A DNA stretch of 64,000 nucleotides from positions 1-64,000 of the forward strand of contig NZ_JAUPED010000010.1 of assembly GCF_030552475.1 (NCBI RefSeq). The letters run 5' to 3'. Below the pieces are notes generated by a model. It made no database searches. It was not told the DNA's origin and saw nothing but the letters and a program-made list of their open reading frames with translations. Shown here one piece after another: positions 7,722 to 63,633 of the stretch. The first letter of the stretch is position 1. Every line of letters begins with the position of its first letter. The position numbers and the translations under genes are program-made. This DNA comes from Mariniflexile sp. AS56 (GTDB taxonomy: Bacteria > Bacteroidota > Bacteroidia > Flavobacteriales > Flavobacteriaceae).

Positions 7722-8313
7722 TGAAATTTTATTTCTATTTGATTTTAGTGAAGATAATAAAGCGCTCTTCTTTAGTCTTAATAGTTTTTTGTATTAGATC
7801 TTTTTGTGTGTGAGGCAATATGAAAATGAATTACTAAAATAAAGACCCCTTTCTTTATTAAAAAGAGACAAGAAAGCATGAACTCACCATGTCCAGTAGT
7901 GAGATAATGAAGTTGTATATTTGCAAATGCATAAGTTGTGGTTCCAGCTGGAAGCGCTGTGTTAAATGAAGCATTTATTGAACCTATTACGAATTTTGAA
8001 TAGAAAAATTTCGGATAGATTAATATATGATTACAAATCATCTTAATTTAACTTGAATGTTTCAATTCTGTTATCTTCCATTCAAGGTAAATGGCTTAAC
8101 TTAATCTACAATTACTCAATTAAAAACCATAATCAGAAATTTTTTGATTATAATGGTAAAATTTAATTAGCAAGGGGTAAATATTGGTGTTTTCATTCCC
8201 TCTATAACAATTAATTTTACCAAATACTATAAATGTGTTTAATTAAATCCAAAGTCAATAAGGAAATTAAATCATTATATATCTGATTTTTTAACTAAAC
8301 TAAAATAAATCAA
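7722..8313. other. 592-bp intergenic region before the first susC
   Basis: No convincing gene is present. An 87-codon minus-strand frame at 7778-8041 has no recognisable features and sits in very AT-rich DNA. The right part holds the operator and promoter described at 8154-8219, followed by a leader of about 90 nt. Confidence 0.6.
8154..8219 (+). promoter_or_regulatory. PUL operator plus -7 box for susC1
   Basis: TGGTAA (8154) and GGGTAA (8175) are direct repeats 21 bp apart. A TAATTTTA -7-like box (8212-8219, consensus TAnnTTTG) begins 32 bp after the second half-site. This is the same geometry as at 18284, 28967 and 63568. Confidence 0.65.
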
Positions 8314-11300
8314 ATGAAATTGAGAAAAGAATTGATAGCTAGAAACTTTTTGAGTAAATGGTTGCTCATTTTGATTTTAGTTTTACATGGAGGCATGTTT
8401 GCCCAAACTAAAAACGTAATAGTACAAGGAACAATTGTTGGACAAGATGGAATGCCTATTCCTGGTGTGACAGTTTTGGTGCTAGGAACTTCAAAAGGAG
8501 CTGTGAGTGATTTTGATGGAAATTATTCCATTGAGACTAAAGTTAACAGTGAATTAGCTTTTAGTTATGTTGGTTTTCAAAAACAAGTTATAAAGGTAAC
8601 TGGACCTAAATTAAATGTTTTGATGAAAGAGGATATTTCAGAGCTAGACGAAGTGGTAGTTATTGGTTATGGTACGCAAAAGAAAAAAGAAATTACAGGC
8701 TCGGTAGGCCAAGTAAAAGCAGAAGAACTTGAGAATGTAATAACAAGTGATATTGGTGCTGCATTACAGGGTCAAATAGCTGGTGTGAGCGTAACAGCTA
8801 ATAGTGGTGAGCCAGGAGAAGGTTCTGCAATTACTATTAGAGGGATATCATCACTAACAGGTTCAAATTCACCATTATGGGTTGTAGATGGCGTTCCGCA
8901 ATCTGGAGATCCTGGATTGAATCCTAATGAAATTGAAACCATGGATATTTTAAAAGATGCGGCTTCAGCTTCTATATATGGTACAAGAGCTGCAGGTGGT
9001 GTTATTTTAGTAACAACGAAAAGAGGAAAAGTTGGAAATACTAAAGTAGGGTTAGAGGTTACTAATGGTCTGCAAATAATTACACGCCAAACACCTCTTA
9101 TGAATACCAATCAGCAAATCTTTTTTGATTTGAATGATCCAACGAGAACAACTTCTGCTGCAAGTTCAGACAGATATAGTTTGCTTAATGATAATGATTT
9201 AAGAGATTTTACTGAAAATGATTTTTCTACTATAAATAGATACAATTTTGATATTTCGGGTGGTAGTGAAGATATAAAATATAGTGTTGTCATGGGACTT
9301 TTTAATCAGGAGGGTACCGTTATAAATTCTAAATTAAAGCGATACAACCTAAGAGCCAACGTTAATTTAACTAAAGGGAAATTTACTATAGATAATGGAT
9401 TTGGTTTTACTGTTGATGAAAGAGAACGTCCAAATTTCAACTTACTTATTTTTGGACAACGTGCGTTACCTTACCTAGATCAAGTAGATGGCAACACAAC
9501 ATCTTTCACCAGTGAAAATGAAGATACTGGAGCAAGTTCTGCTTATGGTCAAATATTAGAAGCTATAACAAGAGACAGACAAGTTGGTCGAGATAGATTT
9601 GAAGCAAGTACTAATATTAAATATCAATTAAATGATCATTTTCAATTAACAACGCTAATTAGTGGTGTTATAGAAAATGAACAAGAAAAACAAGTGCAAC
9701 CGCCTTTTGCGTTATTTGATAATAATGGTAACAATTTACGTACAGCTTCTGATAGTTTTATATATGAAGGACGATCTCGTAATGTATTAATCAATTGGAA
9801 TGGTGGTATAAATTACGATCAACAATTTAACAAACATAAAATAAATGCACTCGCAATTATTAATGTTGAACAAGATTATTTCTCATCTATTGGTGCTGTA
9901 AAAAGGGGATTGTTATTTTCTGATCCTTATGTTAACTTATCTACTGCAACTATTGGAGAAGAATTAGGGTCCGATGTCACTTTAAATTTTACAGGGCCGT
10001 CTACAGTAGAGCCAGATTATAAAACGAAACGAGTAGGTACCGTAGGTCGTGTTCTTTATGATTATGATGGAAAATATCAATTAAGCGCAAGCGCAAGGAT
10101 GGATGCTTCCAATCAATTTTCAAAAGATAATTTATATGCATTTTTCCCTTCTGCATCACTAGGTTGGACAGTTTCTGATGAAAATTTCTGGAAAGGCTTT
10201 AAAAAAACGGTAAATAATTTAAAATTTAGAGCTAGTTATGGTACGACAGGTAACGACCGTTTTACCCCTAACTCCATATATAGTCCTGTAGCGGTAGGCT
10301 ACAATGCAAACTTTCAAAGTGAGAGTGGTACGGATCAAGAAAATTCTGGAATTATTCAACAACAGTTCGGTAATCCTGATTTAAAATGGGAGGTTACTAA
10401 ACAGGCTAATTTTGGTATTGATGTAAGTTTTATGAAAAGTATGTTAGTTTTCACTGCGGATTATTATACTACTAAAAAAGAGGATCTATTAACTCAAGTT
10501 CAAATAAACTCGAGTTTTGGTGCTTCGGTACAAGCAGACCGTGATTTAACAGGTAGCCGATTTGCCGTTTTCAATGTTGGAGACATGACCAATAAAGGTT
10601 TTGAAGCTACATTAAGATATAGACCAAAAGTAGGTAATGTTAGATTTAACATTTTAGGGACATTCACTACAAACAAAAACGTAGTGACGAACCTTCAATC
10701 TGAAAGCGGATTACAAATGTTTACTACCACACCAGTATTTGGCGACAATTTAGCAAGAGCAATTGGTTTACAGGAAGGAAGAGAAGCAGGTTCTTTCCTA
10801 GTATTCAAAACTGATGGTATTTTTAAAGATGCTACAGAATTAGCAGCATACAATGCTAAATATGGTGAAACCAGACAACTTGGTGATTTAAAATATGTTG
10901 ACTCTAACAATAATGGTACCTTAAGAGATGAAGGAGATAGAGTTTACAGCGGTAGCGGACTTGCAGATTATGAAATGGGTCTTAATATTCAAGCCACTTA
11001 TAAAAATTGGTTTTTCCTTACTAATTGGTTTGCTTCTGTAGGTAATGAAGTATATAATGCTACAAGAGCTAGTGCCATGAAAGCGGGTCGTCATAGAGAT
11101 CTAATTTATCAATACATTCCAGGAGTCAATGAAGATACAGATATTCCAACTTTTAGAAGCACATCTAGGGCATCTGGAGATAACAATTATAATGGAAGCT
11201 CCGATTTCTTCATTGAAGATGGATCATTTGTTCGCTTAAGAAATGTAGTTGTGGGTTACACCTTACCTAAAGAGGTTTCAGATAAATTAGGACTTACAAG

Positions 11301-11460
11301 GTTTAATATTTATGCCAATGCACAAAACGTTCTTACAATTACAAATTATACAGGTCTAGATCCTGAAGTTGGTGGTAATAATATCCAATTTAAAGGAATA
11401 GATAATGGCATCATTCCAACTACAGCAAGTTATAATTTAGGTTTAAGATTAAATTTTTAA
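8314..11460 (+). CDS. SusC-like TonB-dependent outer membrane transporter (first pair)
   Basis: The 1048-residue protein has a signal peptide (cleavage after about 31, MFAQ), a carboxypeptidase-D regulatory-like domain (about 36-105, GTIVGQDGMPIPGVTV...DFDGNYSI), a DEVVVIGYGTQKKKE segment marking the SusC plug, a plug domain to about 240, and a 22-strand-type barrel ending in a terminal Phe (LGLRLNF). It should import oligosaccharides in a TonB-dependent manner together with the SusD-like lipoprotein whose gene starts 4 bp after the stop. It heads a three-gene operon that ends at the terminator at 15197. The substrate is inferred to be carrageenan oligosaccharides from the surrounding enzymes. 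Confidence 0.95.
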   Translation: MKLRKELIARNFLSKWLLILILVLHGGMFAQTKNVIVQGTIVGQDGMPIPGVTVLVLGTSKGAVSDFDGNYSIETKVNSELAFSYVGFQKQVIKVTGPKLNVLMKEDISELDEVVVIGYGTQKKKEITGSVGQVKAEELENVITSDIGAALQGQIAGVSVTANSGEPGEGSAITIRGISSLTGSNSPLWVVDGVPQSGDPGLNPNEIETMDILKDAASASIYGTRAAGGVILVTTKRGKVGNTKVGLEVTNGLQIITRQTPLMNTNQQIFFDLNDPTRTTSAASSDRYSLLNDNDLRDFTENDFSTINRYNFDISGGSEDIKYSVVMGLFNQEGTVINSKLKRYNLRANVNLTKGKFTIDNGFGFTVDERERPNFNLLIFGQRALPYLDQVDGNTTSFTSENEDTGASSAYGQILEAITRDRQVGRDRFEASTNIKYQLNDHFQLTTLISGVIENEQEKQVQPPFALFDNNGNNLRTASDSFIYEGRSRNVLINWNGGINYDQQFNKHKINALAIINVEQDYFSSIGAVKRGLLFSDPYVNLSTATIGEELGSDVTLNFTGPSTVEPDYKTKRVGTVGRVLYDYDGKYQLSASARMDASNQFSKDNLYAFFPSASLGWTVSDENFWKGFKKTVNNLKFRASYGTTGNDRFTPNSIYSPVAVGYNANFQSESGTDQENSGIIQQQFGNPDLKWEVTKQANFGIDVSFMKSMLVFTADYYTTKKEDLLTQVQINSSFGASVQADRDLTGSRFAVFNVGDMTNKGFEATLRYRPKVGNVRFNILGTFTTNKNVVTNLQSESGLQMFTTTPVFGDNLARAIGLQEGREAGSFLVFKTDGIFKDATELAAYNAKYGETRQLGDLKYVDSNNNGTLRDEGDRVYSGSGLADYEMGLNIQATYKNWFFLTNWFASVGNEVYNATRASAMKAGRHRDLIYQYIPGVNEDTDIPTFRSTSRASGDNNYNGSSDFFIEDGSFVRLRNVVVGYTLPKEVSDKLGLTRFNIYANAQNVLTITNYTGLDPEVGGNNIQFKGIDNGIIPTTASYNLGLRLNF

Positions 11461-11464
11461 GAAA

Positions 11465-13348
11465 ATGAAAAATATAAAATTAGTTTACGTAATACTTTTA
11501 GTTCTTTTAGGCTTTTCATGTGAAACTTACCTAGAAGAACCGAACCCCAACGCTCCAGAACTTCTCGAGTCTGTAAATAATTTAGATGATACAAATAGAG
11601 TTCTTAATGGTGTTTATAACTCATTATTCAACCACTACGTGTTGAGTATTGAAGAAGATAACTTTAGAACCGATATTGGTGCTGCCAAAAACAGATTAAC
11701 GCCAAGTATTGGTCAAGCAGAACATTTAGATTATTACTATCAAACTGTTACGCCATCCACTAGACGAATAGAGCAACGTTGGGGCGCATTATATCGTGGG
11801 ATTTTCACAGCAAATCAAGCTTTGGCAGCCTTAGATAAAATTGAGCCTACATTATCCACAGCCAATCAAGTAAAAGCTTGGAATGAACAACGTGCACAAG
11901 CACTTTTCTTCAGGGGGTTGTATCACTTTTATGCACATTCAGTTTTTAACAAAGGAGCTGTAATCATAAGAGACAAATATGAATCTAATTTAGAGTTTAG
12001 ACATAAAGATGTTTCAACTTCAGCTGAAGTTATCGCATTTTTCAGAAAAGATTTGGAAGACGCTTTACCTTACTTACCAATGCCTTCTGAAGTTACCGAG
12101 TTAGGTAGAGTAACCAAAGGAGCTGCTAAAATGATTTTGGCTAATTCATATTTATATGAAGCTACCGAGGGCGGACAAAAAAACATGGCACTTATTGATA
12201 AAGCTATAACTCTTTATGAAGAACTAAGAGACAGTTACGGTTATACTCTTGAAACGCAAATAGACAATAAAACTTTAGGTGTTTCAAAAATGTTTACAAC
12301 ATTAGGAGATTTTAATAAGGAATCTATTTTCGAAATTCCTTACACAAATACATTTGGTGAGGAACTTGATGTTTTTAACGAAGCAAGCCCAAGTAATCGA
12401 TTGGCTTGGAGAGCTTCTCATTTTAAGTTTGGCGGACAAAGTTTTATGCAACCAGCAGCTTGGTTAATTATGGCTTATGAAAACGATCCACTGGATACTA
12501 GTAAATCTGTAAATACTATTACTACAGGAGACGGAAATTTAAATACGCGCCGTGAATCGTTAAGATCTTCAAATATGTTGTTTTTAAATAATGATTTAGA
12601 CACGCCAATATATTCATTTCCTAATGTTTTAAACTCCCTTCCAGCTGCTGCGGGGTCATGGCCAGGTTTACGTAATAATACAGGTGATTTTGTAGCCTTT
12701 AAAAAATATACAAATCATGATTTAGGTTTGGCAAGTGAAATAGCTACTCCAGGCGGCGTACAGCAATCGGGTAAAAATGTAGTAATTAATCGTTTATCGG
12801 AGGTATTATTAAATTTAGCTGAGTGCTATATATATAAAGGGAAACTTCAGGAGTCAATAAATGAAATTAATAAAATTCGTGATAGATGGGCTTTAATGCC
12901 TTTAGATTTAAGCAGTCAAATGGATAACCCAGGAGTGGCTTATGATGAAACTACCTTAATGAAAAGACTTATGTATTTTGAAAAACCTTTAGAACTTTCT
13001 TTAGAAGGTCATGCTATACGTGTTATAGATTTAAGAAGATGGAACATAGCTCCACAGCGATTTACAGACCTAAGCACTATATATTATAAAGGTGTAGATT
13101 TTCCAAGAACTGGTAGACGACCTATTACACAAGCATTAGCAAGAGGAACAAACACCAATGTAAGTGGGGGATTTATTAGTGATATAATAACAGTAGATGC
13201 ATCAACCGTTCCAGCGGATGCTAGTACCCAACAAGCTCAAAAAATATTTCAAGAATTTGTAGGAGTTTCTGGGAATTATAACAAAAATGCTGGGTATTTA
13301 CCAATACCAAACGAAGAAGATATTAACAATAACGGATATGAAAATTAA
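11465..13348 (+). CDS. SusD/RagB-like starch-binding-type lipoprotein (first pair)
   Basis: The 627-residue protein starts with a lipoprotein signal (VLLGFSC, Cys about 19) followed by acidic ETYLEEPNPN. The typical SusD features are a helical TPR region with ARxxxARFFRGLYHF-like helices (AQALFFRGLYHF) and a C-terminal RagB/SusD domain with INEIRDRW- and YFEKPLELSLEGHAIRVIDLRRWN-like motifs. It caps the SusC transporter at 8314-11460 at the cell surface and binds the incoming glycan. It lies 4 bp after susC and 6 bp before the glycan-binding protein gene, so the three are surely one transcript. Confidence 0.94.
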   Translation: MKNIKLVYVILLVLLGFSCETYLEEPNPNAPELLESVNNLDDTNRVLNGVYNSLFNHYVLSIEEDNFRTDIGAAKNRLTPSIGQAEHLDYYYQTVTPSTRRIEQRWGALYRGIFTANQALAALDKIEPTLSTANQVKAWNEQRAQALFFRGLYHFYAHSVFNKGAVIIRDKYESNLEFRHKDVSTSAEVIAFFRKDLEDALPYLPMPSEVTELGRVTKGAAKMILANSYLYEATEGGQKNMALIDKAITLYEELRDSYGYTLETQIDNKTLGVSKMFTTLGDFNKESIFEIPYTNTFGEELDVFNEASPSNRLAWRASHFKFGGQSFMQPAAWLIMAYENDPLDTSKSVNTITTGDGNLNTRRESLRSSNMLFLNNDLDTPIYSFPNVLNSLPAAAGSWPGLRNNTGDFVAFKKYTNHDLGLASEIATPGGVQQSGKNVVINRLSEVLLNLAECYIYKGKLQESINEINKIRDRWALMPLDLSSQMDNPGVAYDETTLMKRLMYFEKPLELSLEGHAIRVIDLRRWNIAPQRFTDLSTIYYKGVDFPRTGRRPITQALARGTNTNVSGGFISDIITVDASTVPADASTQQAQKIFQEFVGVSGNYNKNAGYLPIPNEEDINNNGYEN

Positions 13349-13354: not shown

Positions 13355-15082
13355 ATGAAAAAATATAATCTAATTTTATTATTATTTGTAGCGCTAGTAG
13401 GTTGTACTATTGACGACTATAACCAGCCTTCAGATTTTAGCAAGCCGCAAGTTTTTACAACTGGTATTTATAACATTAGTGCAAGTACTATAGCAAATAG
13501 CATTCCTATTTCTATCGATGATTTTAGTTCACTAACGGATGTTTCCCAAGGTGTTGTTTCAAGATATTGGACCATTGAAAATGGTACTCGTTTTTTAAAC
13601 TCAGAATTAACAAGAAAAGATAGTCTTGATTTAGCACGATTTATTGATCCTGAATTAGGTAATACCCATTGGAAAGATGCTGTACATGTTTTATTTCAAG
13701 AAGAAGGAGAAACAACGGTAACTTTAAAAAACAAGTTTACTAAAGCCGTAAGTTTATATGGGAAGGATGCTGTACAAACTGCTGATGGCTTATGGGAATT
13801 AACGACGGTTTTTAAATATGATGTACATGCCAAATTAAATGCAGAAGCTTCTGTTAAAAATTTGGAAGATGGTAAAGAGGTGATTCTTTCAGCTAACCAA
13901 AACCCAAGTATAGATAATACTAGTGGTTTTACTACTATTACTATCGAAGCTGGTTCAAAATTAACCTTTAAAGATTTAACAACAACAGGAAGACCAAGTG
14001 ATAGAATTTGGGATTTTAAAGGAGGTCAGCCAGTAACTAGTACAGAAATTGAACAAGTAGTGACTTATAATAGAGTTGGGGAATACACGGCAGTTTTAAC
14101 TGTTTCCAGAGCTAAAAAAGGAAACAATACGCTTAGATATTCTGAACAAACAAAAGCAATACCAGCAGTTATTAAAGTAATTCCATCTACAAAACCGTTT
14201 ACCATAAACGGTAATGCATTTGCAGTTGCAGACACAGACAATATCCCTGGTACTAAAAATATCGCATTTAGGGTTAATGGAATATTAGAGTCGTTTACAG
14301 GATTGACAAATAATTTTTCAGTTAACGTTGTAAATGGATCTTTCAATCAAAATTTTACTGTGACTTCAGCTAAAGTAAGCAGTACAGATGAAACCATGAT
14401 TGAATTAGAGCTTGCGCAACCTATATTAAATTCAGACACCGTTAAGCTTTCTTACAATGGCACAGCTATTATAGCTATTGATGATAGGCAGTTATTGCCA
14501 TTCAATAACGCAACAGTTTCTCCTTTGCTTATTAATTATTTAGCAAATGCTTTTAACCCTAGTTTTGAAGAGGCTTCTCAATCAAGTACAACAGGAGCTC
14601 AAAGTTATACACATTTTGTGGTAGGTAATAATTTAAGTCAAATCACCAATGCCGACGGATCTTTATATGCAGCAAGAAGTACTGAAAAGGCTAGCGACGG
14701 TAGTGCTTCAATGAAATACAATCTTGTTTTACCTTTAGTAACTACGCAAGGATATTTTGGATTAATAAATAATACAGTATCAAATTCTAACATACCTACA
14801 GGGGATTATAAACTTACATTTGATGTGTTTGTTGAAAGTGGTAATTTTATGGGCATATTCAATGCAATGCAAGGTGCGTCGTCATCACCATCTGGGGTGG
14901 GTATTCCATTTAATACACCCGCTATAGGCGAATGGTTTACTCTGGAGCGTACTTTTTCTGTGAATGGAACGCTAGGAGGGAATGTTGTTTTTAATGTGAG
15001 AAATGCCGACAATAGTGGTGTTACAGGAAGACAAGTGTTTTATATTGATAATTTAAAAGTATTAAAAATAGAAACCAGATAA
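13355..15082 (+). CDS. SusE-position surface glycan-binding lipoprotein with PKD-like domain
   Basis: The 575-residue protein has a lipobox (ALVGC, Cys about 16). A PKD-like segment lies at about 200-285 (GSKLTFKDLTTTGRPSDRIWDFKGGQPVTS...YTAVLTVSRAKKG), followed by an Ig-like region and a C-terminal carbohydrate-binding-module-like beta-sandwich (about 395-575) ending in GRQVFYIDNLKVLKIE, a common CBM ending. Its position after susC-susD and its domain mix match surface glycan-binding proteins of marine PULs. It has no catalytic motif. Binding of sulfated galactan is inferred from context only. Confidence 0.82.
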   Translation: MKKYNLILLLFVALVGCTIDDYNQPSDFSKPQVFTTGIYNISASTIANSIPISIDDFSSLTDVSQGVVSRYWTIENGTRFLNSELTRKDSLDLARFIDPELGNTHWKDAVHVLFQEEGETTVTLKNKFTKAVSLYGKDAVQTADGLWELTTVFKYDVHAKLNAEASVKNLEDGKEVILSANQNPSIDNTSGFTTITIEAGSKLTFKDLTTTGRPSDRIWDFKGGQPVTSTEIEQVVTYNRVGEYTAVLTVSRAKKGNNTLRYSEQTKAIPAVIKVIPSTKPFTINGNAFAVADTDNIPGTKNIAFRVNGILESFTGLTNNFSVNVVNGSFNQNFTVTSAKVSSTDETMIELELAQPILNSDTVKLSYNGTAIIAIDDRQLLPFNNATVSPLLINYLANAFNPSFEEASQSSTTGAQSYTHFVVGNNLSQITNADGSLYAARSTEKASDGSASMKYNLVLPLVTTQGYFGLINNTVSNSNIPTGDYKLTFDVFVESGNFMGIFNAMQGASSSPSGVGIPFNTPAIGEWFTLERTFSVNGTLGGNVVFNVRNADNSGVTGRQVFYIDNLKVLKIETR

Positions 15083-15999: not shown

Positions 16000-17055
16000 T
16001 TACTCTTTTATGAATTTTTTGGTTGAAACTCCATTAGCTGAAGTTAATTTTAAAATATATAGTGATTTGTTTAATGACGATACATTAATGTGCTCAGTAT
16101 TATTTTTAACAGAAAGTACATTTTTACCTAAAAGGTCGTATACTTCTACTTTTTGTAATGGCTCTTTTGTATTAATATATAACACATCTTTTGCTGGATT
16201 AGGATATGTTGAAAATTCGAAAGCTGTATTTGTAGTTGTTGATAAAGTGCCAGATGATCCAATTTGACCGTTATCAGTACCATCACTTTCCGCATAACTC
16301 CATAATTTATAAATATGAGCGCCACCATCGTTTGCATTAAGCGAGCTTGTTGTCCAATTTGCAATGTTGCTGATACTCGCTCTTAAAGCACTAGCGCTTC
16401 CTAGCAATTGACCATTATAAACGCCGTTTTGCATCGTTGTACCAGCACCAAATGGGAATAAGATGGTTAAATCGGCACCATCTAAAGCTGTAGGTTTTGC
16501 ACAAAATGCATTTGCGGTGCCTGCTTTTACTTCAGCCCAATCAATTCCTGTTTTTATTCCAGTAATCCATCCTGCTGATGCTCCATCAGTTGGTTCATCA
16601 AATGCACCTGAATGTTGAAAAAACAGAACTGAATCTCCGTTACTTGCATTGTTAGATAATAAATTAAAACCCGCAGTAGTGCCACCTGGAGATTGTTTTA
16701 CCGTGGTACCAACAGATGTTGATGCACCTCCGGTAACTCTAGTTACAACCTCACCAGTCCCTAATGTAAGAATGGTTCCAGAAGGTATTGCGTTGGTCGC
16801 AGTCCAGGTATATACATCATCAACTCCATATGAACCAGTAAAACCTGTTTGATCAGCTAACCATGAACGATTAGAAATATCAATAACAGTTCCGGCATCA
16901 ATGTCTTTTAATATAATAAAGGCGATGGCACCTTGATTCGTGTTAATCGATTTGTAGCCAACAATAGCAATATCGCCTGCAGTTAAAGTTGTTTGTGCCT
17001 TTGTAATTGCAACAAGTGCAAAAACAAATAAAATGGTTGAGTAAATTTTTTTCAT
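16000..17055 (-). CDS. secreted protein of unknown function with T9SS sorting domain
   Basis: The 351-residue protein has a signal peptide (cleavage near residue 20, TKAQ) and a beta-rich domain rich in Gly, Thr and Asn (about 22-265, opening with LTAGDIAIVGYKSINTNQ). The C-terminal T9SS type A tail (about 280-351) has YPNPAKDVLYI, VYDLLGKNV and the final STKKFIKE. It should be exported and anchored or released by the type IX system. No catalytic motif or enzyme family was recognised. Its promoter carries the PUL operator in the correct orientation (17092-17157), so it is probably made together with the carrageenan enzymes. A role at the cell surface in glycan capture or adhesion is only a guess. 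Confidence 0.85.
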   Translation of the reverse strand: MKKIYSTILFVFALVAITKAQTTLTAGDIAIVGYKSINTNQGAIAFIILKDIDAGTVIDISNRSWLADQTGFTGSYGVDDVYTWTATNAIPSGTILTLGTGEVVTRVTGGASTSVGTTVKQSPGGTTAGFNLLSNNASNGDSVLFFQHSGAFDEPTDGASAGWITGIKTGIDWAEVKAGTANAFCAKPTALDGADLTILFPFGAGTTMQNGVYNGQLLGSASALRASISNIANWTTSSLNANDGGAHIYKLWSYAESDGTDNGQIGSSGTLSTTTNTAFEFSTYPNPAKDVLYINTKEPLQKVEVYDLLGKNVLSVKNNTEHINVSSLNKSLYILKLTSANGVSTKKFIKE

Positions 17056-17091: not shown

Positions 17092-17157
17092 GCAATTTAC
17101 TGCGTATAAAGACTTTAGTACTGGTAAATATTACCCTACTATTAATAAAAATTACCT
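17092..17157 (-). promoter_or_regulatory. PUL operator plus -7 box for the T9SS protein gene
   Basis: On the minus strand AGGTAA (17157-17152) and GGGTAA (17136-17131) are direct repeats 21 bp apart. TAAATTGC, a weak TAnnTTTG-like box, begins at 17099, exactly 32 bp after the second half-site. Confidence 0.6.
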
Positions 17158-17388: not shown

Positions 17389-18246
17389 ATGAAACTAGTT
17401 TTAAAAGATTCAAATACATATATTAATAAACGTTTAACTGCAGATGAGCGTGATGAACCCTGCATGGATGTAGCATGGCATTACCACCCACAATTTGAGT
17501 TATTATATATATCTAAAAGTACAGGCATACGTTTTGTTGGTGATAGTGTAGCGCCTTTTTACCCAGGTGAGTTAGTCTTGGTTGGTGGTTATTTACCACA
17601 TCTTTGGAGAAATGACCCAGAATATTATGAAGACAACAAAGGTTTAAGAGTTAAAACGATTGTTATAAAGTTTTTAAAAAACTTTATAGGTGAAGATACC
17701 TTTAAAAATCCTGAATTTTCAGAAATTAATGAGCTTCTAGATATATCAAAATTTGGTGTATCGTTTGGAAGAAGTGTTAGCAAAAAACTTCATAATGAAT
17801 TAATGGAGATTCCATATTTATCATCTACTCAGCAGTCAATAAAAGTTTTGGATATTTTATATCGATTGTCAAAAGTTGAAGATAAAACCTTGTTGTCATC
17901 TTCAGATATGCGTCAATATTCCTTAGATAAACCTGATAGATTAGATTCCGTAATTCGATATATTTCAGATAATTATTCACAAGAAATTACCTTAACTGAA
18001 ATAGCTGACATTGCTTGTATGACCACTAATTCTTTTTGCAGATTTTTCAAAAAAATGACGAACAAATCATTTACTGAATTTTTAAATGAAGTACGTATTA
18101 GAAATGCGTCTCGCTTATTGGTTCAAGAAGATTTGCCTATTTCTGAAATCTGTTATTCAGTAGGCTACAAGTCAATACCTAATTTTAATAAGCAGTTTAA
18201 AGAAATTATGTCTAGTACTCCTAAAGAATATAGATATTCTCTGTAG
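17389..18246 (+). CDS. AraC-family transcriptional regulator
   Basis: The 285-residue protein has an N-terminal cupin-like sensor domain (about 15-150, with WHYHPQFELLYI and GELVLVGGYLPHLWRN) and a C-terminal AraC-type double helix-turn-helix (about 185-285): LTEIADIACMTTNSFCRFFKKMTNKSF for the first HTH and ISEICYSVGYKSIPNFNKQFKEIMSSTPKEYR for the second. No membrane segment or receiver domain is present, so it should sense a cytoplasmic ligand. It is the only transcription factor gene in the PUL part of the window and is monocistronic. It is the natural candidate for recognising the 21-bp direct repeats found in front of the PUL operons; this is inference. Its own upstream region has GGGTAA at 17221 but no 21-bp partner. 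Confidence 0.92.
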   Translation: MKLVLKDSNTYINKRLTADERDEPCMDVAWHYHPQFELLYISKSTGIRFVGDSVAPFYPGELVLVGGYLPHLWRNDPEYYEDNKGLRVKTIVIKFLKNFIGEDTFKNPEFSEINELLDISKFGVSFGRSVSKKLHNELMEIPYLSSTQQSIKVLDILYRLSKVEDKTLLSSSDMRQYSLDKPDRLDSVIRYISDNYSQEITLTEIADIACMTTNSFCRFFKKMTNKSFTEFLNEVRIRNASRLLVQEDLPISEICYSVGYKSIPNFNKQFKEIMSSTPKEYRYSL

Positions 18247-18283: not shown

Positions 18284-18349
18284 GGGTAATAATGTGTATT
18301 AAAAGGGTAACTTTTAATAGAGATACTATACTGTTTTCATTTTCCTTTG
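18284..18349 (+). promoter_or_regulatory. PUL operator plus -7 box for the sulfatase gene at 18414
   Basis: GGGTAA at 18284 and 18305 are direct repeats 21 bp apart. TTCCTTTG (18342-18349), one mismatch from TAnnTTTG, begins 32 bp after the second repeat. Confidence 0.7.
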
Positions 18350-19857: not shown

Positions 19858-19923
19858 AGGTAAAATAATGTATGAAGTGGGTAAGTTTTGCTTAATTATA
19901 ACATTGAATATGCTGTTATTTTG
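19858..19923 (+). promoter_or_regulatory. PUL operator plus -7 box for the aldolase-kinase operon
   Basis: AGGTAA (19858) and GGGTAA (19879) are 21 bp apart. A TATTTTG box (19917-19923) follows 33 bp after the second half-site, about 60 bp before the aldolase start. Confidence 0.65.
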
Positions 19924-19982: not shown

Positions 19983-20660
19983 ATGTATCCAATAGCACAA
20001 CAGGCGATGTCGCCAGAAATTATCAAAAAAATAGACGAAGTAGGCATTATAGCTGTACTTATCATTGACGAATTAAAACATGCAGTTCCAGTAGCAAAAG
20101 CACTTTTAGAAGGCGGTATTGATGCTATCGAATTAACACTGCGTACACCTGTGGCACTGGATGCTGCTCGTTTAATTAAGAAAGAAGTGCCGGAAATTTG
20201 TTTGGGATTTGGAACTGTATTAACTATCGACCAAGTAAAAGCGGTTGTAGATGCCGGGGCAGATTTTGCTGTAGCACCAGGATGCAATCCTAAAATTATC
20301 GCGGAGGCAAGAAAACAAGGTTTGTCTTTTGCACCAGGAATTATGACGCCAACAGATATTGAAATGGCACTTGAAGAAGGTTGTAGAGTTCTTAAATATT
20401 TTCCTGCTGAATCTTCAGGAGGAATGGATCACTTAACAAACATGGTGGCACCTTATCAATATTTAAATCCAAAATTTATTCCATTAGGTGGATGTAATTT
20501 GGAAAATGCAGGTTCGTATTTAGAATCGTCATTAATCACAGCAATCGGTGGGTCATGGGTTGCAAAACGTCCATTAATCCAATCAGAAAATTGGGCAGAA
20601 ATTACTAAAAATGCCACCGAAATCAGAACATTAATTAAAAAGATTAAAGCTAATAAATAG
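19983..20660 (+). CDS. eda: 2-keto-3-deoxy-6-phosphogluconate/galactonate aldolase
   Basis: This 225-residue class I aldolase has the KDPG aldolase active site: Glu50 in IELTLRTP and the Schiff-base Lys138 in LKYFPAE, plus GFGTVLT and FAPGIMTP. It splits 2-keto-3-deoxy-6-phospho-sugar acid into pyruvate and glyceraldehyde-3-phosphate in the cytoplasm. With the kinase gene 11 bp downstream, it forms the last two steps of 3,6-anhydrogalactose breakdown. In this locus the expected substrate is the galactonate epimer (KDPGal), which is inference, since KDPG and KDPGal aldolases are not separable by motif. The start at 19983 is supported by the usual length. Confidence 0.9.
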   Translation: MYPIAQQAMSPEIIKKIDEVGIIAVLIIDELKHAVPVAKALLEGGIDAIELTLRTPVALDAARLIKKEVPEICLGFGTVLTIDQVKAVVDAGADFAVAPGCNPKIIAEARKQGLSFAPGIMTPTDIEMALEEGCRVLKYFPAESSGGMDHLTNMVAPYQYLNPKFIPLGGCNLENAGSYLESSLITAIGGSWVAKRPLIQSENWAEITKNATEIRTLIKKIKANK

Positions 20661-20671
20661 TATATAATATT

Positions 20672-21760: not shown

Positions 21761-21784
21761 TTTAATTATTCTAAAATAATTTAA

Positions 21785-23649: not shown

Positions 23650-23714
23650 AGGTAATTTTTTTATGATGAAGGGTAATATGTGACAGTTTTTTAAATTATC
23701 TTATGTTAATTTTG
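23650..23714 (+). promoter_or_regulatory. PUL operator plus -7 box for susC2
   Basis: AGGTAA (23650) and GGGTAA (23671) are 21 bp apart. A perfect TAnnTTTG box, TAATTTTG (23707-23714), begins 31 bp after the second half-site. The leader to the susC start is long, about 160 nt. Confidence 0.75.
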
Positions 23715-27088: not shown

Positions 27089-27094
27089 TGGGTT

Positions 27095-28966: not shown

Positions 28967-29032
28967 AGGTAATATTGATTATTTCAAGGGTAATATAACA
29001 CGGTGTTAAATTATAGATATCGTTTATTTTAG
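28967..29032 (+). promoter_or_regulatory. PUL operator plus -7 box for the 29-41 kb operon
   Basis: AGGTAA (28967) and GGGTAA (28988) are 21 bp apart. TATTTTAG (29025-29032), TAnnTTTG-like, begins 32 bp after the second half-site. It drives the cycloisomerase gene and probably the seven genes that follow. Confidence 0.7.
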
Positions 29033-41502: not shown

Positions 41503-41574
41503 AGATAATTTTTAATTGGTAAAGGGTAAGTTTTGTTCATTTTTAAATTCGTAAAATCAGGTTCTTTATACTTG
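41503..41574 (+). promoter_or_regulatory. PUL operator (one degenerate half-site) for the 41-46 kb operon
   Basis: AGATAA (41503) and GGGTAA (41524) are 21 bp apart, with an extra TGGTAA just before the second. TATACTTG (41567-41574), one mismatch from TAnnTTTG, follows after 38 bp, a little farther than at other sites. Confidence 0.55.
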
Positions 41575-43970: not shown

Positions 43971-43997
43971 TATCAATTACTATTAAAGTTTAAATCC

Positions 43998-45566: not shown

Positions 45567-45652
45567 CGCTTTCATAAAAAAAGGTGAGTTGAAAAGTAAT
45601 ACCTTACTAAGTATTAGATTGCAATCAAACTAAACATTTTAATGGCTATAAG

Positions 45653-50926: not shown

Positions 50927-50980
50927 TATATAAAAGTTTGAATAATTCTTTGTTCCGGATTTAATTAAGATTAAAATATT

Positions 50981-51046
50981 CAAATTACCAATATTTATTT
51001 AAAAAAAACTTCTTTAATATTATCTTTTGTTAAAGATATTTTACCC
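50981..51046 (-). promoter_or_regulatory. PUL operator (reversed quality order) for the S1_7-like sulfatase
   Basis: On the minus strand GGGTAA (51046-51041) and AGATAA (51025-51020) are 21 bp apart. A TAATTTG box (50987-50981) starts 33 bp after the second half-site, and the sulfatase start is at 50926. Here the weak half-site is the promoter-proximal one. Confidence 0.45.
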
Positions 51047-51074: not shown

Positions 51075-51158
51075 GGGTAATGGGTAAAATTGCATTAATA
51101 GTGGGTAAATTTCAATTAACGGGAAGTGGTTTTATGTTTTTACTTAGCAAACGGGTAA
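51075..51158 (+). promoter_or_regulatory. cluster of GGGTAA half-sites for the 51-63 kb operon
   Basis: GGGTAA occurs at 51075, 51082, 51103 and 51153 on the plus strand. The 51082/51103 pair has the 21-bp spacing of the other PUL operators. The -7 box is unclear (TATGTTTT at 51133 or TACTTAGC at 51141). The first gene starts at 51177. Confidence 0.6.
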
Positions 51159-52637: not shown

Positions 52638-52647
52638 TTTTTTATAA

Positions 52648-54516: not shown

Positions 54517-54536
54517 TAAACAACTAAATAATAAAG

Positions 54537-56939: not shown

Positions 56940-56941
56940 GT

Positions 56942-58594
56942 ATGAATCGAGTTATTTGCTTACTAATAATCATCGCTCTTTTTTCTTGTAAAGAACAGCA
57001 AGTTTTGCAAAAGAAAAAACCGAACATCCTTTTTATAACTATTGACGATTTACGTCCGGAATTAGGTTGTTATGGGTCTGATATTGCAATAAGTCCGAAT
57101 CTAGACAAGTTAGCTAGTGAAGGTTTATTATTTAATAAAGCCTATTGTCAACAAGCTATTTGTGGTCCTTCAAGGGCAAGTTTGTTAACAGGAATTCGTC
57201 CTGAAACCAGCGGCGTTTTCCATAATTACATCAAATTTAGGGAAGCCAATCCCGATGTGGTAACCTTGCCGCAAATGTTTAAAGAAAATGGTTATGAAAC
57301 TGTCTATACAGGTAAAATATTCCACCATGGCGATTTAGATGATGAATTGTCTTGGAGCAGAAAACCTGCTGTAGATAGCATGACAGTTAAAGGTGTAAAA
57401 GAACCCGGTGGATTTGCGTTACAAGAAAATATTGAAGCCACGGAGCGACAACGAAAGTTAATGATTGAAAAATATGGTGACGTCGCAAAATTTGGTTTAG
57501 CCAGTGGTCCAGCATACGAAGGTGCCGATGTTCCAGACAATGGTTATATAGATGGCTACAATACAGAATTGGCCATTGAGACCATGAAAGAGATGGCGGC
57601 AAATGGAGATAAACCTTTTTTCTTGGGACTAGGCTTTAATAAGCCGCATTTAAACTGGACAGCTCCAAAAAAGTATTGGGATTTATATGACCGAGATAAA
57701 ATTAATATAACTGCACAAGATACCATGCCATATCACGGTGCTCAAATGGGCTTACATCCTTCTTTCGAATTGCGTGTACGTGATGGTATTCCAAAGGTAG
57801 GGTCTATTGATTTGGAACTTGCCAAAACATTAAAACATGCCTATTTAGCTTGTGTGAGTTATGTAGATGCACAAATTGGAAGAATGATTGAAGCTTTAGA
57901 TGAAGCTGGACTTCGAGAAAATACTATTATTGTGGTTTGGAGTGACCATGGTTGGCATTTAGGAGATATGGGCATTTGGGGAAAAGCCACCAATTACGAA
58001 ATTGCTACACGAGTACCAATGATGATTTTGACACCCAATATGCCAAAAGAAACTCGTGGAAAAAAAACAGATGCTTTAGTGGAATTGGTAGATATATATC
58101 CTACTTTATGTGATATAGCAGGTTTACAAATACCAAAAACTGTTGAAGGATATAGCTTTAAAGAATTAATTAAAGACCCAAACAAAACTTGGAAAACGGC
58201 TGCATTTAGTCAATTTCCAACACCGGCTTTGCGTGAATGGGGTGCTTATCCTTTACGACCTGCCATGAGAGAAACCTATTTCGGACCTCTTATTGAAGAA
58301 GTTGAAGGTCGAATTATTGAACAGCAAAAAGAAAAATGGAATCGCGACATGTTCGAAAACACGTTGATGGGTTATGCGATGCGTACCGAACAATATCGTT
58401 TTATAGTTTGGAAAGACAGAGCACATCTTGAAAAGGAACCGATTTTCATCGAATTGTATGACCATAGAAAGGATCCATTGGAAACGGTAAATATTGCAGA
58501 TAAAAACCCAGATTTGGTTACCAAATTAATGATTCAGTTTGTTAAAGGATGGAAAGGTAATCTGCCAAAAAGCAAACACGAAATAACCAACTAA
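56942..58594 (+). CDS. sulfatase, S1_7/iduronate-2-sulfatase-like lipoprotein (copy B)
   Basis: The 550-residue protein begins with a short lipoprotein signal (MNRVICLLIIIALFSC). It has FITIDDLRPELGCYG, QQAICGPSRASLLTG with formylglycine Cys74, YTGKIFHHG and WSDHGWHLGDMGIWGK. Long shared stretches with the copy at 49307-50926 (for example FPTPALREWGAYPLRP and NRDMFENTLMGYAMRTEQYRFI) show they are paralogues. It lies 2 bp after the clan GH-A gene. It removes a sulfate ester from carrageenan oligosaccharides in the periplasm, and the site is not known. Confidence 0.92.
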   Translation: MNRVICLLIIIALFSCKEQQVLQKKKPNILFITIDDLRPELGCYGSDIAISPNLDKLASEGLLFNKAYCQQAICGPSRASLLTGIRPETSGVFHNYIKFREANPDVVTLPQMFKENGYETVYTGKIFHHGDLDDELSWSRKPAVDSMTVKGVKEPGGFALQENIEATERQRKLMIEKYGDVAKFGLASGPAYEGADVPDNGYIDGYNTELAIETMKEMAANGDKPFFLGLGFNKPHLNWTAPKKYWDLYDRDKINITAQDTMPYHGAQMGLHPSFELRVRDGIPKVGSIDLELAKTLKHAYLACVSYVDAQIGRMIEALDEAGLRENTIIVVWSDHGWHLGDMGIWGKATNYEIATRVPMMILTPNMPKETRGKKTDALVELVDIYPTLCDIAGLQIPKTVEGYSFKELIKDPNKTWKTAAFSQFPTPALREWGAYPLRPAMRETYFGPLIEEVEGRIIEQQKEKWNRDMFENTLMGYAMRTEQYRFIVWKDRAHLEKEPIFIELYDHRKDPLETVNIADKNPDLVTKLMIQFVKGWKGNLPKSKHEITN

Positions 58595-58624
58595 GTAATA
58601 AAACACTATTAAACTTTTTAAGAC

Positions 58625-60550
58625 ATGCAAAGACGAGATTTTTTTAAAAAAGGAACAACAGCGGCGATAGCTGCTGGTGTCATTCCATTAGTTGCCAGTT
58701 CTTGTGCAAGTACTCAGGATGTCGTTTACGATAGGAAATTAGATAAATGGTATCATCTTGGTACAGGAAAGACGGGTATGCCTTCTAGAAAAAAAACAAT
58801 TGGTTATGATGTTGCTGTTATAGGTGGTGGTGCAGCTGGAATTTGTGCAGCCGTTGCCGCAGCTCGTAATGGTTCTAAAACCGTTTTAGTGCAAGATAGA
58901 CCAGTGTTAGGAGGTAACGCATCAAGTGAAATGCGTGTACACTTAAATGGTGTAAATCAACTTAATAATGGCGAAGCAGAACGTGAAACTGGTATTATAG
59001 AAGAAATGCTTTTGCATAATCGTTTTGAAAATGAACAAGAATCTTTTCCTATTTTCGACCATGTATTGTATGATTTTGTAGTAAGAGAGCCCAATTTAAC
59101 CTTGATGTTAAATACTCAAGCTGTAGATGCTGAAATGAAAGGTGATATAATAAAATCTGCCTTGTGTTGGCAAGCTACAACTGAAATTCTTTATACTATT
59201 AATGCGCATATATTTATTGATTGCTCAGGTGATGGATTATTAGCAGCAACTTCAGGCGCTGAATATAGAACGGGAAGAGAAGGAAAAGCAGAGTTTAATG
59301 AAACCTACGCCCCAGATGAGCCAGATGGGTGGCAAATGGGAGCTACACTTTTGATGTCTTCAAAAGACATGGGTCGGCCTATAAAATATAGTCCACCATC
59401 TTATGTTATAAAATACACTCACGAAGGCGCAAGTCTAAAACGAAAATTTGCAGGTTATCATGAAGGTATTTGGTGGATTGAAGTAGGTAGTGAAGGAGAT
59501 ATTATAGCTGATTTTGAGGTGAATAGGCATAAATTAATGGGTTATTTACATGGAGTTTGGGATTATATTAAAAACTCAGGAAAATTCCCTGAAGCTGAAA
59601 ATTTAGCACTAGATTGGGTAGGCTCATTACCTGGAAGAAGAGAATCCCGAAGATTTATTGGCGATTATATTGTTTCTGAAAAAGACATGACTGAATATAA
59701 GCAGTTTGAAGATGCCATCGCTTTTGGTGGTTGGTCTTTAGACGAACATAATCCGGGAGGAATCGAAAATATTTCAGAGCCACCAAGTTATTTTCATCAT
59801 CATTTTGATGAAGTATATCAGTTTCCTTTTAGAGCTTTGTACTCTAAAAATGTATCTAATTTAATGTTTGCTGGTCGAAATGTAAGTCAAACACATATTG
59901 CACTCTCATCTTCAAGAATTATGGCAACTTGTGCCTTAATGGGGCAAGCTGTAGGAACAGCGGCAACTATTTGTAATAAGAAAAATATATTGCCTAGAGA
60001 AGTAGCTCAAAAACATATTAATGAACTTCAAGAACAAATAATGAGAGATGACGTTTTTATCCCAAAACGTCCAGCTAATGACCCAAATGATTTAGCAAGA
60101 AAAGCTAATTTAATTTTTGGTTCAACAACACTATCTGGTGATGCTAAAAACTTAACTAATGGTATATCAAGAGATATAGATGGTGCAATTAACCATTGGC
60201 AATCTGATGGATTATCTGCCGAACTTCAATTGGAATGGGAATTGCCAATAGCACTTTCATCAGTAGAGATAAAGTGCGATACCAATGTAAAGCGGAACAT
60301 CATGATGCGTAAAGATAGTAGAAATGACGATCTTTATGGTAATGCTATTCCCCCTGAAATGTTGAAATCTTTAAGTTTGGAAGGGCGTGTAAATGGTGTT
60401 TGGCAAAATATTGGAGATATTAAAGAAAACCGTACACGTTTGATAAAATTTAAGTTTGATAGCATGAATGTTACGGCCATTAGGGTAAAAATGACAGAAA
60501 CTTATGGTGCCGAACATGTGAAATTATTCGAGATACGTTGTTATGCTTAG
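58625..60550 (+). CDS. Tat-exported FAD-dependent oxidoreductase lipoprotein
   Basis: The 641-residue protein starts with a twin-arginine signal (QRRDFFKKG) and a lipobox-like ASSC (Cys about 27). This suggests export folded with cofactor and lipid anchoring. A Rossmann FAD site is at about 57-90 (YDVAVIGGGAAGICAAVAAARNG, then VLGGNASSEMRVHLNG), as in the FAD_oxidored family. A further FAD segment is FAGRNVSQTHIALSSSRIMATCALMGQAVG. The last 140 residues form a beta-sandwich resembling an F5/8-type C module (LSSVEIKCDTN...VRVKMTETYGAEHVKLFEIRCY). Its stop overlaps the start of the next gene by 8 bp. Substrate unknown; an oxidative step on the glycan is possible. Confidence 0.8.
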   Translation: MQRRDFFKKGTTAAIAAGVIPLVASSCASTQDVVYDRKLDKWYHLGTGKTGMPSRKKTIGYDVAVIGGGAAGICAAVAAARNGSKTVLVQDRPVLGGNASSEMRVHLNGVNQLNNGEAERETGIIEEMLLHNRFENEQESFPIFDHVLYDFVVREPNLTLMLNTQAVDAEMKGDIIKSALCWQATTEILYTINAHIFIDCSGDGLLAATSGAEYRTGREGKAEFNETYAPDEPDGWQMGATLLMSSKDMGRPIKYSPPSYVIKYTHEGASLKRKFAGYHEGIWWIEVGSEGDIIADFEVNRHKLMGYLHGVWDYIKNSGKFPEAENLALDWVGSLPGRRESRRFIGDYIVSEKDMTEYKQFEDAIAFGGWSLDEHNPGGIENISEPPSYFHHHFDEVYQFPFRALYSKNVSNLMFAGRNVSQTHIALSSSRIMATCALMGQAVGTAATICNKKNILPREVAQKHINELQEQIMRDDVFIPKRPANDPNDLARKANLIFGSTTLSGDAKNLTNGISRDIDGAINHWQSDGLSAELQLEWELPIALSSVEIKCDTNVKRNIMMRKDSRNDDLYGNAIPPEMLKSLSLEGRVNGVWQNIGDIKENRTRLIKFKFDSMNVTAIRVKMTETYGAEHVKLFEIRCYA

Positions 60551-61676
60551 TAAACTGAATATTGTCATTATTTTAACATTTCCTTTTTGGATATTTTTCC
60601 AAAGTGGCAGTGATGTTTCCAATAATTACGATATTAAAATTCAGCACACATTTTATGTTAACCATCCAGGGGAAAAAGAACCTATGGAAGTCGTTCTCAT
60701 AGAAATTCAAAATAAAGACAGCCTTCCTATTCAATATTATATGGATGTGAAATCCGTGATTTGTTTAGAGCAGGTTTGCAAGGTTATTCCTGTTCGAATT
60801 TTTTGGAATAATATTGGCGAATATCAAAACTATAAGCTAAAAGAAGGAGCCACCCTCGAAAAATATGAAGCCGATTTGTTTGAGTCCGAAGATTATGTGA
60901 AACTTCAATCTATTCTTTCCAATAAAAATTCGCCATTTAAAGAGGTGAAATTGGATGAGGTTTTAACCGTTGTTGATGAAACAGATTTTGAAGACGTTGA
61001 TGCGGTTTCTGGCGCTACGGCCTTGGAACTTAATGAAAATGACACGGTAGCCGGAGCAGCATTAACCTGTTATACCTTGTGGCATTGGGCAAATGGAAAT
61101 ATGGTTGCTCTTATAAAAAAGAATACAACAGAAACTGTATCTAATGAACAACTTTTAGATTTTCTGAATGAAAAAAATAAGGATTATTATTTATTAGCAC
61201 TAAATGAATTAACCAAACGAAAAGTTTATGGAGAAGACTTTACAAATGCTGTTTTAAATCGTGTTTTTAAGGATGCGAATTTATTAAGAGCCTCTTTTAA
61301 ATATATTGAAACAGCTCCCAAAAGTATATACTTTTCAGTAGTGAAAAATATTTTCGAAAGAGGAGGGCAGGAACAAAAAATTGCAGCTATAAAATCGCTT
61401 CATGCTAGTCCGTTTGAAATATCAAAAGCGTATTTAGATTTATTTTGTGTTCAGATACCTAATTTAAAATCATTTCAAGAAGTGATGGTGTTTTTAGAAT
61501 TGATGCAAAGTAGAAATGCAAACTCAACTAAAGTAATAGATTGTACAATTCCATTATTGGACGCGAATTTTTTAATAGCACGTCGAACTTATTGGTTTCT
61601 AATTAATGAAAATTTGGATACACTGCAACAGCAAAAAGTAGAGGCGTTTTATATAAAAAATAAAGACAAATTGTAA
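60543..61676 (+). CDS. secreted protein with FMN-binding-like flavinylation motif and helical repeats
   Basis: The 377-residue protein has an N-terminal hydrophobic signal (about 1-22). The N-terminal half ends with DAVSGAT: Asp153, Ser156, Gly157, Ala158, Thr159. This matches the Dxx(S/T)GA(T) motif in which ApbE attaches FMN to Thr in NqrC/RnfG-type FMN-binding domains. The C-terminal half (about 195-377) is all-helical, HEAT-like (EKNKDYYLLALNELTKRKV, QKIAAIKSLHASP). The gene overlaps the FAD oxidoreductase by 8 bp, so the two are translationally coupled. A covalent-flavin electron carrier partnering the oxidoreductase is my inference. Confidence 0.65.
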   Translation: MLSKLNIVIILTFPFWIFFQSGSDVSNNYDIKIQHTFYVNHPGEKEPMEVVLIEIQNKDSLPIQYYMDVKSVICLEQVCKVIPVRIFWNNIGEYQNYKLKEGATLEKYEADLFESEDYVKLQSILSNKNSPFKEVKLDEVLTVVDETDFEDVDAVSGATALELNENDTVAGAALTCYTLWHWANGNMVALIKKNTTETVSNEQLLDFLNEKNKDYYLLALNELTKRKVYGEDFTNAVLNRVFKDANLLRASFKYIETAPKSIYFSVVKNIFERGGQEQKIAAIKSLHASPFEISKAYLDLFCVQIPNLKSFQEVMVFLELMQSRNANSTKVIDCTIPLLDANFLIARRTYWFLINENLDTLQQQKVEAFYIKNKDKL

Positions 61677-63426: not shown

Positions 63427-63463
63427 TTCATTTAAAGTAAAAACGAATTAATTGTAATAATAT

Positions 63464-63508
63464 AAACACCAGTAGCGAACAGCTTTGTTTACTACTGGTG
63501 TTTTTTTG
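63464..63508 (+). terminator. rho-independent terminator of the 51-63 kb operon
   Basis: AAACACCAGTAG pairs perfectly with CTACTGGTGTTT, followed by a T-run, 37 bp after the sulfatase stop. Confidence 0.9.
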
Positions 63509-63567
63509 TTTTGTAATAAATTTATTTGTAATTATTTGAGGAGGTTAAGGGATATTTCGTTTTAAAA

Positions 63568-63633
63568 GGGTAAAAATCAATAATTCATGGGTAAATCTTC
63601 AAGGTCATTTTAGAAGCATGCATTTTATCTTTA
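63568..63633 (+). promoter_or_regulatory. PUL operator plus -7 box for the GH16 gene at the right edge
   Basis: GGGTAA at 63568 and 63589 are exact direct repeats 21 bp apart. TATCTTTA (63626-63633), one mismatch from TAnnTTTG, begins 32 bp after the second repeat and 20 bp before the GH16 start. Confidence 0.75.

Follow-up and report, generated by a model that had tools for sequence, protein, structure and literature searches.

In the AraC system of Escherichia coli, araI1-I2 consists of two direct half-sites 21 bp apart, the proximal of which adjoins the -35 region, and activation takes place from there. In the marine flavobacterium Zobellia galactanivorans, the alginate genes are controlled by AusR, a GntR-type repressor. 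For carrageenans, a cgrA deletion mutant of the same species shows a lag and reduced growth (PMC5698469), which points to activation, and for Bacteroides, direct repeats averaging 21 bp have been inferred as motifs of the hybrid two-component system (HTCS) regulators (PMC3878776). Here we analyse positions 1-64000 of contig C2 of Mariniflexile sp. AS56 (hereafter the window, 64,000 nucleotides; own genome 4.65 Mb, 49 contigs), which hold a carrageenan locus, and in it a paired direct repeat of GGGTAA-type half-sites in front of the transcription units. The pair itself, its spacing, its fixed distance to the promoter, its conservation across orders, its linkage to CgrA and its match to the published regulon were computed. 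Judged from these comparisons, the pair very probably serves as operator for CgrA, an AraC-family activator whose gene lies at 17389-18246 and whose binding to it is predicted.

The initial annotation listed ten paired half-sites with starts 21 bp apart. All ten are present in the window sequence, with both halves in the same orientation and 21 bp apart, and they are also the ten best sites by a matrix trained outside the window. The eight plus-strand starts were given correctly, while the minus-strand ones are 17157 and 51046 rather than 17152 and 51041. Eight carry the exact DGGTAA-N15-GGGTAA (8154+, 17157-, 18284+, 19858+, 23650+, 28967+, 51082+ and 63568+), and in the other two, one half-site has a one-base variant (41503+, AGATAA...GGGTAA; 51046-, GGGTAA...AGATAA). 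GGTAA pairs occur eight times in the window at spacing 21 and at most twice at any other spacing from 8 to 60. Genome-wide, the exact pair has 11 matches against four for the reversed control; eight of the 11 are within this locus, and the three outside all fall in reading frames that stay open for 60 codons or longer, so that the expectation of a pair concentrated here, and not placed before unrelated genes, is borne out for the exact pattern. The loose GGTAA-N16-GGTAA is at chance level genome-wide (40 vs 42 in the control), showing that the specificity comes from the promoter box together with the additional G and the AT-rich extension; the loose counts are not used as evidence, the basis of the claim being the more complete motif.

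The weight matrix was built with 74 sites, which come from 36 of the 43 loci of other genomes, with the window and Mariniflexile fucanivorans DSM 18792 (L012, whose CgrA is 98% identical to that of the window) excluded from training. On the window, the ten sites score from 44.7 down to 21.1 and the next best 9.3, and no score in five Markov-1 shuffles went beyond 13.8, the highest there; on 118 kb of other DNA, both strands, one score exceeds 20 and none exceeds 30. In addition, a sequence-only model, R1, was built from 63 sites, 11 of the 74 training sites (four box-bearing among these) having been removed by hand from alignment A1. The ten putative operators and cgrA are as follows, with matrix scores and E-values of the R1 scan of the own genome.

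8154..8180, plus strand: operator 1, before a SusC/SusD-like pair (8314-13348) and a PKD-domain protein (13355-15082); exact pair, score 30.2.
17131..17157, minus strand: operator 2, before a 351-residue protein with a type IX secretion tail (16000-17055, minus); exact pair, score 28.6; box one base closer, poor; R1 match partial, E 0.27.
17389..18246, plus strand: cgrA, coding for a 285-residue AraC-family regulator with an AraC DNA-binding domain at 205-282 and a weak N-terminal cupin match.
18284..18310, plus strand: operator 3, before the sulfatase 18414-19808; score 37.1; box TTCCTTTG at 18342-18349; R1 E 1.0e-5.
19858..19884, plus strand: operator 4, before KDPG-type aldolase, PfkB kinase and GH16 genes (19983-22786); top score 44.7; box TTATTTTG at 19916-19923; best R1 match in the own genome, E 7.8e-8.
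23650..23676, plus strand: operator 5, before the second SusC/SusD-like pair (23879-28861); score 25.9; box TAATTTTG at 23707-23714, one base closer than usual; R1 E 1.4.
28967..28993, plus strand: operator 6, before cycloisomerase-like and aldehyde dehydrogenase genes (29131-31756), the unit perhaps also including genes after 31756; score 26.0; R1 E 0.012.
41503..41529, plus strand: operator 7, before GH42-like, GH82-like iota-carrageenase and GH16 genes (41673-46582); variant pair, score 23.5; weak box; R1 E 0.13.
51020..51046, minus strand: operator 8, before the sulfatase 49307-50983 (minus); variant pair, score 22.4; R1 E 3.6.
51082..51108, plus strand: operator 9, before 51177-61676 (including GH167-like 54537 and sulfatase 56942); score 36.4; weak box; R1 E 3.4e-6.
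63568..63594, plus strand: operator 10, before an open reading frame (ORF) from 63646 running past the window end (the contig continues in L090); score 21.1; box TATCTTTA at 63626-63633; R1 E 0.07.

The GH82 assignment behind operator 7 is from PDB 1h80 (E 4.6e-32, residues 54-316) and the GH167 assignment behind operator 9 from PDB 9whd (E 2.8e-147). Downstream of operator 8, the 479-residue protein at 46673-48112 (minus) matches no sequence in Pfam or the PDB at the thresholds applied.

A gapless stack of 85 non-redundant sites, window included, shows a first half of about GGTAAAATAnnGTA and a second half of GGTAAnTT, followed by a T-[TA]-n-n-TTTG box whose start is at offset 58, counted from where the pair begins. 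The promoter-distal half-site extends beyond the GGGTAA first taken for it, to about GGGTAAAATAATGTA; it reaches GGTAAAATAATGTA, while the second box of the proximal half-site is weak (an araI-type half-site is about 17 bp with two contacted boxes). Among the 74 training sites, TnnnTTTG is found at offset 57-59 in 43, with 40 of these at exactly 58, and the fixed register is much clearer in these relatives, with a modal distance of 31 nt past the second half-site, than in the window. There the fixed distance to the box claimed before is found as one register in eight of the ten sites (best fit at offset 58, with the box 31 nt beyond the second hexamer), the box being one base closer at 17157- and 23650+. 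The two sites formerly set apart, 41503 for a gap of 38 bp and 51082 for an unclear box, both fit the common register, with poor boxes (TTTA and TTAG instead of TTTG). In the 50 box-bearing sites, TTG starts at offsets 31-37 in three cases and at offset 30 in seven, so the -33 element is mostly missing and the proximal half-site occupies its place. By analogy with araI2, this layout is that of a class II activator site. For comparison, promoters of Bacteroides have TAnnTTTG at -7 and TTTG near -33, and in Flavobacterium johnsoniae only the -7 consensus is confirmed (PMC7366714).

CgrA relatives were then compared from 48 loci, including 44 close orthologue loci and four distant paralogues (L055, L056, L058 and L059). 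GGTAA pairs are found 83 times at spacing 21 in the 48 loci, with a mean of 5.5 for each other spacing from 8 to 60 and five for the reversed pattern at spacing 21; in the 44 orthologue loci alone there are 83 at 21 bp, three at 20 and seven at 22. Exact pairs are present in 37 of the 44, and the remaining seven, not in training, all have a degenerate site scoring at least 28, whereas the four distant-paralogue loci have no site at threshold 20. Most of the pairs (78 of 83) lie outside open frames of at least 150 codons, and a TnnnTTT[GA] box is located at offset 57-59 in 62 of the 83 pairs and in none of the five in-frame ones. The genes behind the 78 pairs mostly have their best window match in this locus: the SusC-like proteins (14 and 9), sulfatase 18414 (7), the cycloisomerase (7), GH16 (7), the aldolase (5), GH127 (4) and eight other genes of the region (9); in 16 cases the downstream gene has no window-protein match or there is no downstream ORF. 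The susC of operator 5 is the best match behind the 14 sites, and that of operator 1 behind sites in eight other loci, with 36-61% identity. In the L012 stretch, the exact-core scan recovers all five window operators falling within it, the equivalent of operator 1 lying 160 bp before the matching susC. We also compared the elements of the window and L012 directly (0 of 50 core positions differ, and 10 of 85 other element positions), and set this aside as a measure of core conservation, as it is circular for sites found by their cores; the recovery of five out of five alone counts as evidence. The operator-bearing loci belong to the orders Flavobacteriales, Cytophagales, Marinilabiliales and Saprospirales of Bacteroidota. 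Together with the genome-wide scan, these orthologous loci support the earlier proposal of a regulon-wide operator for a tandem-subunit activator, probably the AraC-family protein. As a separate observation, the cgrA of Flavobacterium algicola MBE-1 (L054:10001-10849) has no single-frame read-through in the assembly, and its locus retains three operators.

As for the regulator, domain and structure models indicate that CgrA is a one-component AraC-family protein with a clear DNA-binding domain (Pfam HTH_18, 1.6e-20) and a weak N-terminal cupin signal. Alignment A2 keeps 39 of 49 sequences (the window and the 48 loci), having dropped L054 (frame broken), the four distant paralogues, L027, L043, L044, L053 and L057. 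All 39 have HTH_18 and HTH_AraC, and all 39 have Cupin_2 at E<=1 (best 1.1e-5, window CgrA only 0.054), with AraC_binding in 23. Foldseek matches the DNA-binding domain of the AlphaFold2 (AF2) model (pLDDT 78, pTM 0.56) to the AraC-family regulators 3oou, 6swi, 3w6v and 2k9s; the full-length superposition is weak (template modelling score 0.35-0.39), and the model was discarded as evidence for the sensor fold, the DNA-binding domain alone being relied on. No kinase domain is found in the 285 residues, unlike the HTCS architecture. Operators before cgrA itself are absent in the window, in the Zobellia genome and in 39 of 40 orthologues; with a score of at least 20 upstream in only one of the 40, autoregulation of cgrA was rejected as a rule.

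The presence of the operator was next compared with that of its regulator in 299 genomes of the family. Twelve encode a CgrA with an identity of 61% or above, and all 12 carry the pair with the box (32 hits), while among the other 287, 65 carry it, with 76 hits by hand count, or 0.26 per genome. R1 was run on 11 CgrA genomes and on 11 with only a 37-40% relative. Six of the latter 11 (G001, G236, G289, G011, G129 and G286) have R1 hits at E about 0.001 or better, in surroundings of cycloisomerase, aldehyde dehydrogenase, GH127, sulfatase or SusC genes, and their regulators have N-A-F-C-R in the first recognition helix, where window CgrA has N-S-F-C-R. The other five (G162, G226, G173, G248 and G152) have hits of 0.01 or worse, or none, and the helix is S-[AS]-F-S-R. 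Seven further relatives, outside the R1 scan, show P- or T-A-F-C-R in three and S/T-A-F-S-R in four. On these sequences, operator presence correlates with the recognition helix of the regulator.

The carrageenan regulon published for Z. galactanivorans (PMC5698469) offers a comparison of another kind. The DagB of G301, of the same genus as G236, is identical over 693 residues to PDB 5opq, which is ZGAL_3152 of that species (PMC5698469), and G301 is thereby identified as Z. galactanivorans; other ZGAL numbers were assigned by us, using the position and order of the genes and how far their products are identical to window proteins. The matrix used for scanning includes 11 sites from four non-Zobellia genera and none from Zobellia. 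Sites were assigned to nine units, listed with matrix score and the published log2 changes on kappa-carrageenan and on 3,6-anhydro-D-galactose (D-AnG; PMC5698469, Table 1).

dagA3 unit, ZGAL_3150: score 44.0; 8.1 and 7.1; R1 hit genome-wide.
ZGAL_3157 (dau) unit: score 43.8; 8.4 and 7.0; R1 hit genome-wide.
cgtAB: score 41.6; 9.6 and 4.3; R1 hit genome-wide.
cgsB2, ZGAL_181: score 34.3; 8.4 and 5.1; R1 hit genome-wide.
Probable cgiA3 (ZGAL_1973), a GH82 gene interrupted by a stop: score 34.2; 7.6 and 0.1; R1 hit genome-wide.
cgkA, ZGAL_236: score 18.3; 10.6 and 0.8; targeted scan.
ZGAL_3147 unit: score 16.8; 7.2 and 3.3; targeted scan.
ZGAL_3158: score 12.5; 4.3 and 4.1; targeted scan.
cgiA1, ZGAL_4265: score 9.3; 8.7 and 0.0; targeted scan.

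By our grouping of Table 1 (PMC5698469) into 11 carrageenan-induced units, five have a strong site (34.2-44.0) and four a weak one (9.3-18.3), the other two being cgrA, which has none, and the ZGAL_3629-3638 cluster, where none was detected; all five strong sites precede published carrageenan-induced units, distal ones included. The upstream region of cgiA2, reported as down-regulated on carrageenans (PMC5698469), has a best score of 2.9 and that of cgrA -11.6, neither showing an operator. Counterparts of the ZGAL_3147 and ZGAL_3158 sites are found in G001 (25.7 and 15.2) and G236 (20.8 and 22.0). Among 78 control genes, two upstream scores reach 9.3 and one is at least 12.5, which makes the weakest Zobellia assignments the least certain. 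The GH82-like gene behind the 34.2 site (G301:C1:2298228-2299517) has its in-frame stop in this assembly.

The top control score, 23.0 at G286:C1:609614, lies next to an N-A-F-C-R paralogue and probably marks a genuine operator; it was kept in the control. This stretch (G286:C1:608724-610620) has an AraC paralogue 32% identical to CgrA, with the CgrA-like operator in the divergent intergenic region, and no other gene there matched a window protein. A second similar 21-bp pair, about GGTAATwTAGnACATnTTTTnGGTAATTTTG, is found at G018:C8:17561, G211:C12:130464, G247:C66:33508, G289:C18:168456 and G184:C1:1750438, and the four whose surroundings were inspected (all but G211:C12:130464) lie directly upstream of an AraC paralogue. 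These are possibly autoregulatory operators, and the reading of GGTAA may be common to this AraC group.

Several results weigh against this reading of the pair as the operator of CgrA. In the R1 scan of the own genome, only five of the ten sites (19858, 51082, 8154, 18284 and 28967) beat the best match outside the locus (C25:6717, E 0.036), and the remaining five, with E from 0.07 to 3.6, are among chance matches, so that the scored scan separates the five strongest sites and the support of the weaker ones is their placement in the locus, not the genome-wide score. C25:6717 (L096) was itself rejected as an operator, being a short array of GGTAA/GGGTGA-like repeats resembling the half-site, with the sole ORF found in the 3-kb locus on the opposite strand; at three loci of lower R1 matches in the own genome, the matrix never scores more than 8. 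Some sites of the window have poor boxes (41503, 51082 and 17157-). The CgrA-like protein of L058, 28% identical overall, has the N-S-F-C-R helix, and there is no operator in its 20 kb. In Zobellia, none of the four weak sites among the nine assigned is an R1 hit at E<=1, and the scan that located them was confined to regions selected for their induced genes; nine of the 14 R1 hits at E<=1 in G301 are not at assigned units, and five of these nine, when inspected, lie in frames or have a low matrix score. The carrageenan-induced ZGAL_3629-3638 cluster has no R1 hit at E<=1 between 4,148,480 and 4,422,919, the interval expected by gene number, and the probable cgiA3 has a strong site and a nil published response to D-AnG (PMC5698469). 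These Zobellia exceptions show that one factor with one operator is insufficient for the whole carrageenan response.

Of the other explanations, an operator of a different regulator, either an HTCS or an AraC paralogue encoded elsewhere with CgrA acting indirectly, is unlikely. The averaged 21-bp repeats of the Bacteroides HTCS proteins (PMC3878776) would fit it, as would the many AraC-like genes of the family genomes (up to 75 first-look candidates per genome), some of which have their own GGTAA pairs upstream. However, a scan of 38 of the 44 window ORFs of at least 100 residues (the other six overlap longer ORFs) recognised no further regulator, cgrA is inside the loci, and the operator tracks CgrA orthology and the recognition helix. 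AraC-family proteins are able to activate and repress, and the operator adjoins the polymerase contact region, so CgrA might bind the pair as a repressor released by the sugar; we consider this very improbable, because the promoters mostly are without a -33 element, as expected where an activator is needed, and the loss of growth on carrageenan in the cgrA deletion (PMC5698469) points the same way. Least credible of all is that the pairs are AT-rich repeats due to chance, or promoter elements of an alternative sigma factor. The chance-level loose pattern and the five sites within the R1 background speak for such repeats, yet chance does not account for the spacing spike, the intergenic placement, the fixed promoter register and the cross-order conservation; as to a sigma element, the pair is upstream of a standard -7 box, so the promoter is not replaced.

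If the pair is the operator of CgrA, we infer that two CgrA subunits would sit head-to-tail along the same face of the double helix, one per half-site, at a distance of 21 bp or two helical turns. The promoter-proximal subunit would end near -33 of a promoter with a TAnnTTTG-like -7 box, where the bound dimer could replace the missing -33 contact and recruit RNA polymerase. The trigger may be a carrageenan breakdown product sensed by the N-terminal cupin-like domain, plausibly D-AnG or an oligosaccharide containing it. Genes outside the locus would join the regulon by carrying a copy of the operator, leaving it scattered over the chromosome. The operator would then be a sequence rule predicting direct CgrA targets, distant genes included, across several Bacteroidota orders; it would account for the entry of single genes into a scattered regulon, and makes the idea of D-AnG as effector testable.

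Over the nine Zobellia units, the site score correlates with the published D-AnG induction (Spearman 0.82, p 0.007) and not with that by kappa-carrageenan (0.17), in a post hoc comparison with gene assignments partly by position and weak sites from the targeted scan. A strict rule in which the operator means D-AnG inducibility is contradicted by the probable cgiA3 and the carrageenase sites. It is conceivable, though rather doubtful, that the match to the consensus grades the response of the scattered regulon as a dose code: strong copies (the ZGAL_3157/dau unit, dagA3, cgtAB and cgsB2) would fire on the D-AnG monosaccharide alone, and weak copies, as at the carrageenases cgkA and cgiA1, would need more activator or a second signal. 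If so, uptake and sugar processing would respond to another signal level than the polymer-cutting enzymes. The probable cgiA3 clearly departs from this pattern; in addition, ZGAL_3158 and ZGAL_3147 are D-AnG-responsive despite weak sites.

Beside the locus, two tyrosine-recombinase integrase genes (window 4430-7197) directly adjoin its start, and G134, a genome of the same genus, lacks a close CgrA (best 36%), which suggests that the locus is mobile or recently acquired.

Compared with the known systems, the CgrA pair differs from araI1-I2 in the half-site sequence and in its place at a Bacteroidota promoter. AusR is likewise a case of transcription-factor control in a marine flavobacterial polysaccharide system, of another family and acting as a repressor. 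Closest in content is the CgrA regulon of Z. galactanivorans, which also has an AraC-family regulator in a carrageenan locus, like enzymes and transporters, and a distal susCD and sulfatase (PMC5698469); its CgrA is about 38% identical to that of the window, and the main text of that paper, by word search, is without 'operator' or GGGTAA, no DNA operator being described in the parts consulted. Searches of open-licence papers, judged by title and abstract, found none described for CgrA, carrageenan loci or related systems, in line with the first impression of an undescribed operator; the form as such is shared with the HTCS motifs, also direct repeats averaging 21 bp, for an AraC-type DNA-binding domain at promoters of polysaccharide utilization loci and found by comparative genomics (PMC3878776). 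The HTCS proteins are membrane hybrid sensors (PMC3878776) where CgrA is a one-component protein, and the pair analysed here has its -7 box at a defined, constant offset, none being seen for the HTCS motifs in the available part of PMC3878776. Therefore, the operator and the regulon map appear new, with a geometry already known from the HTCS motifs.

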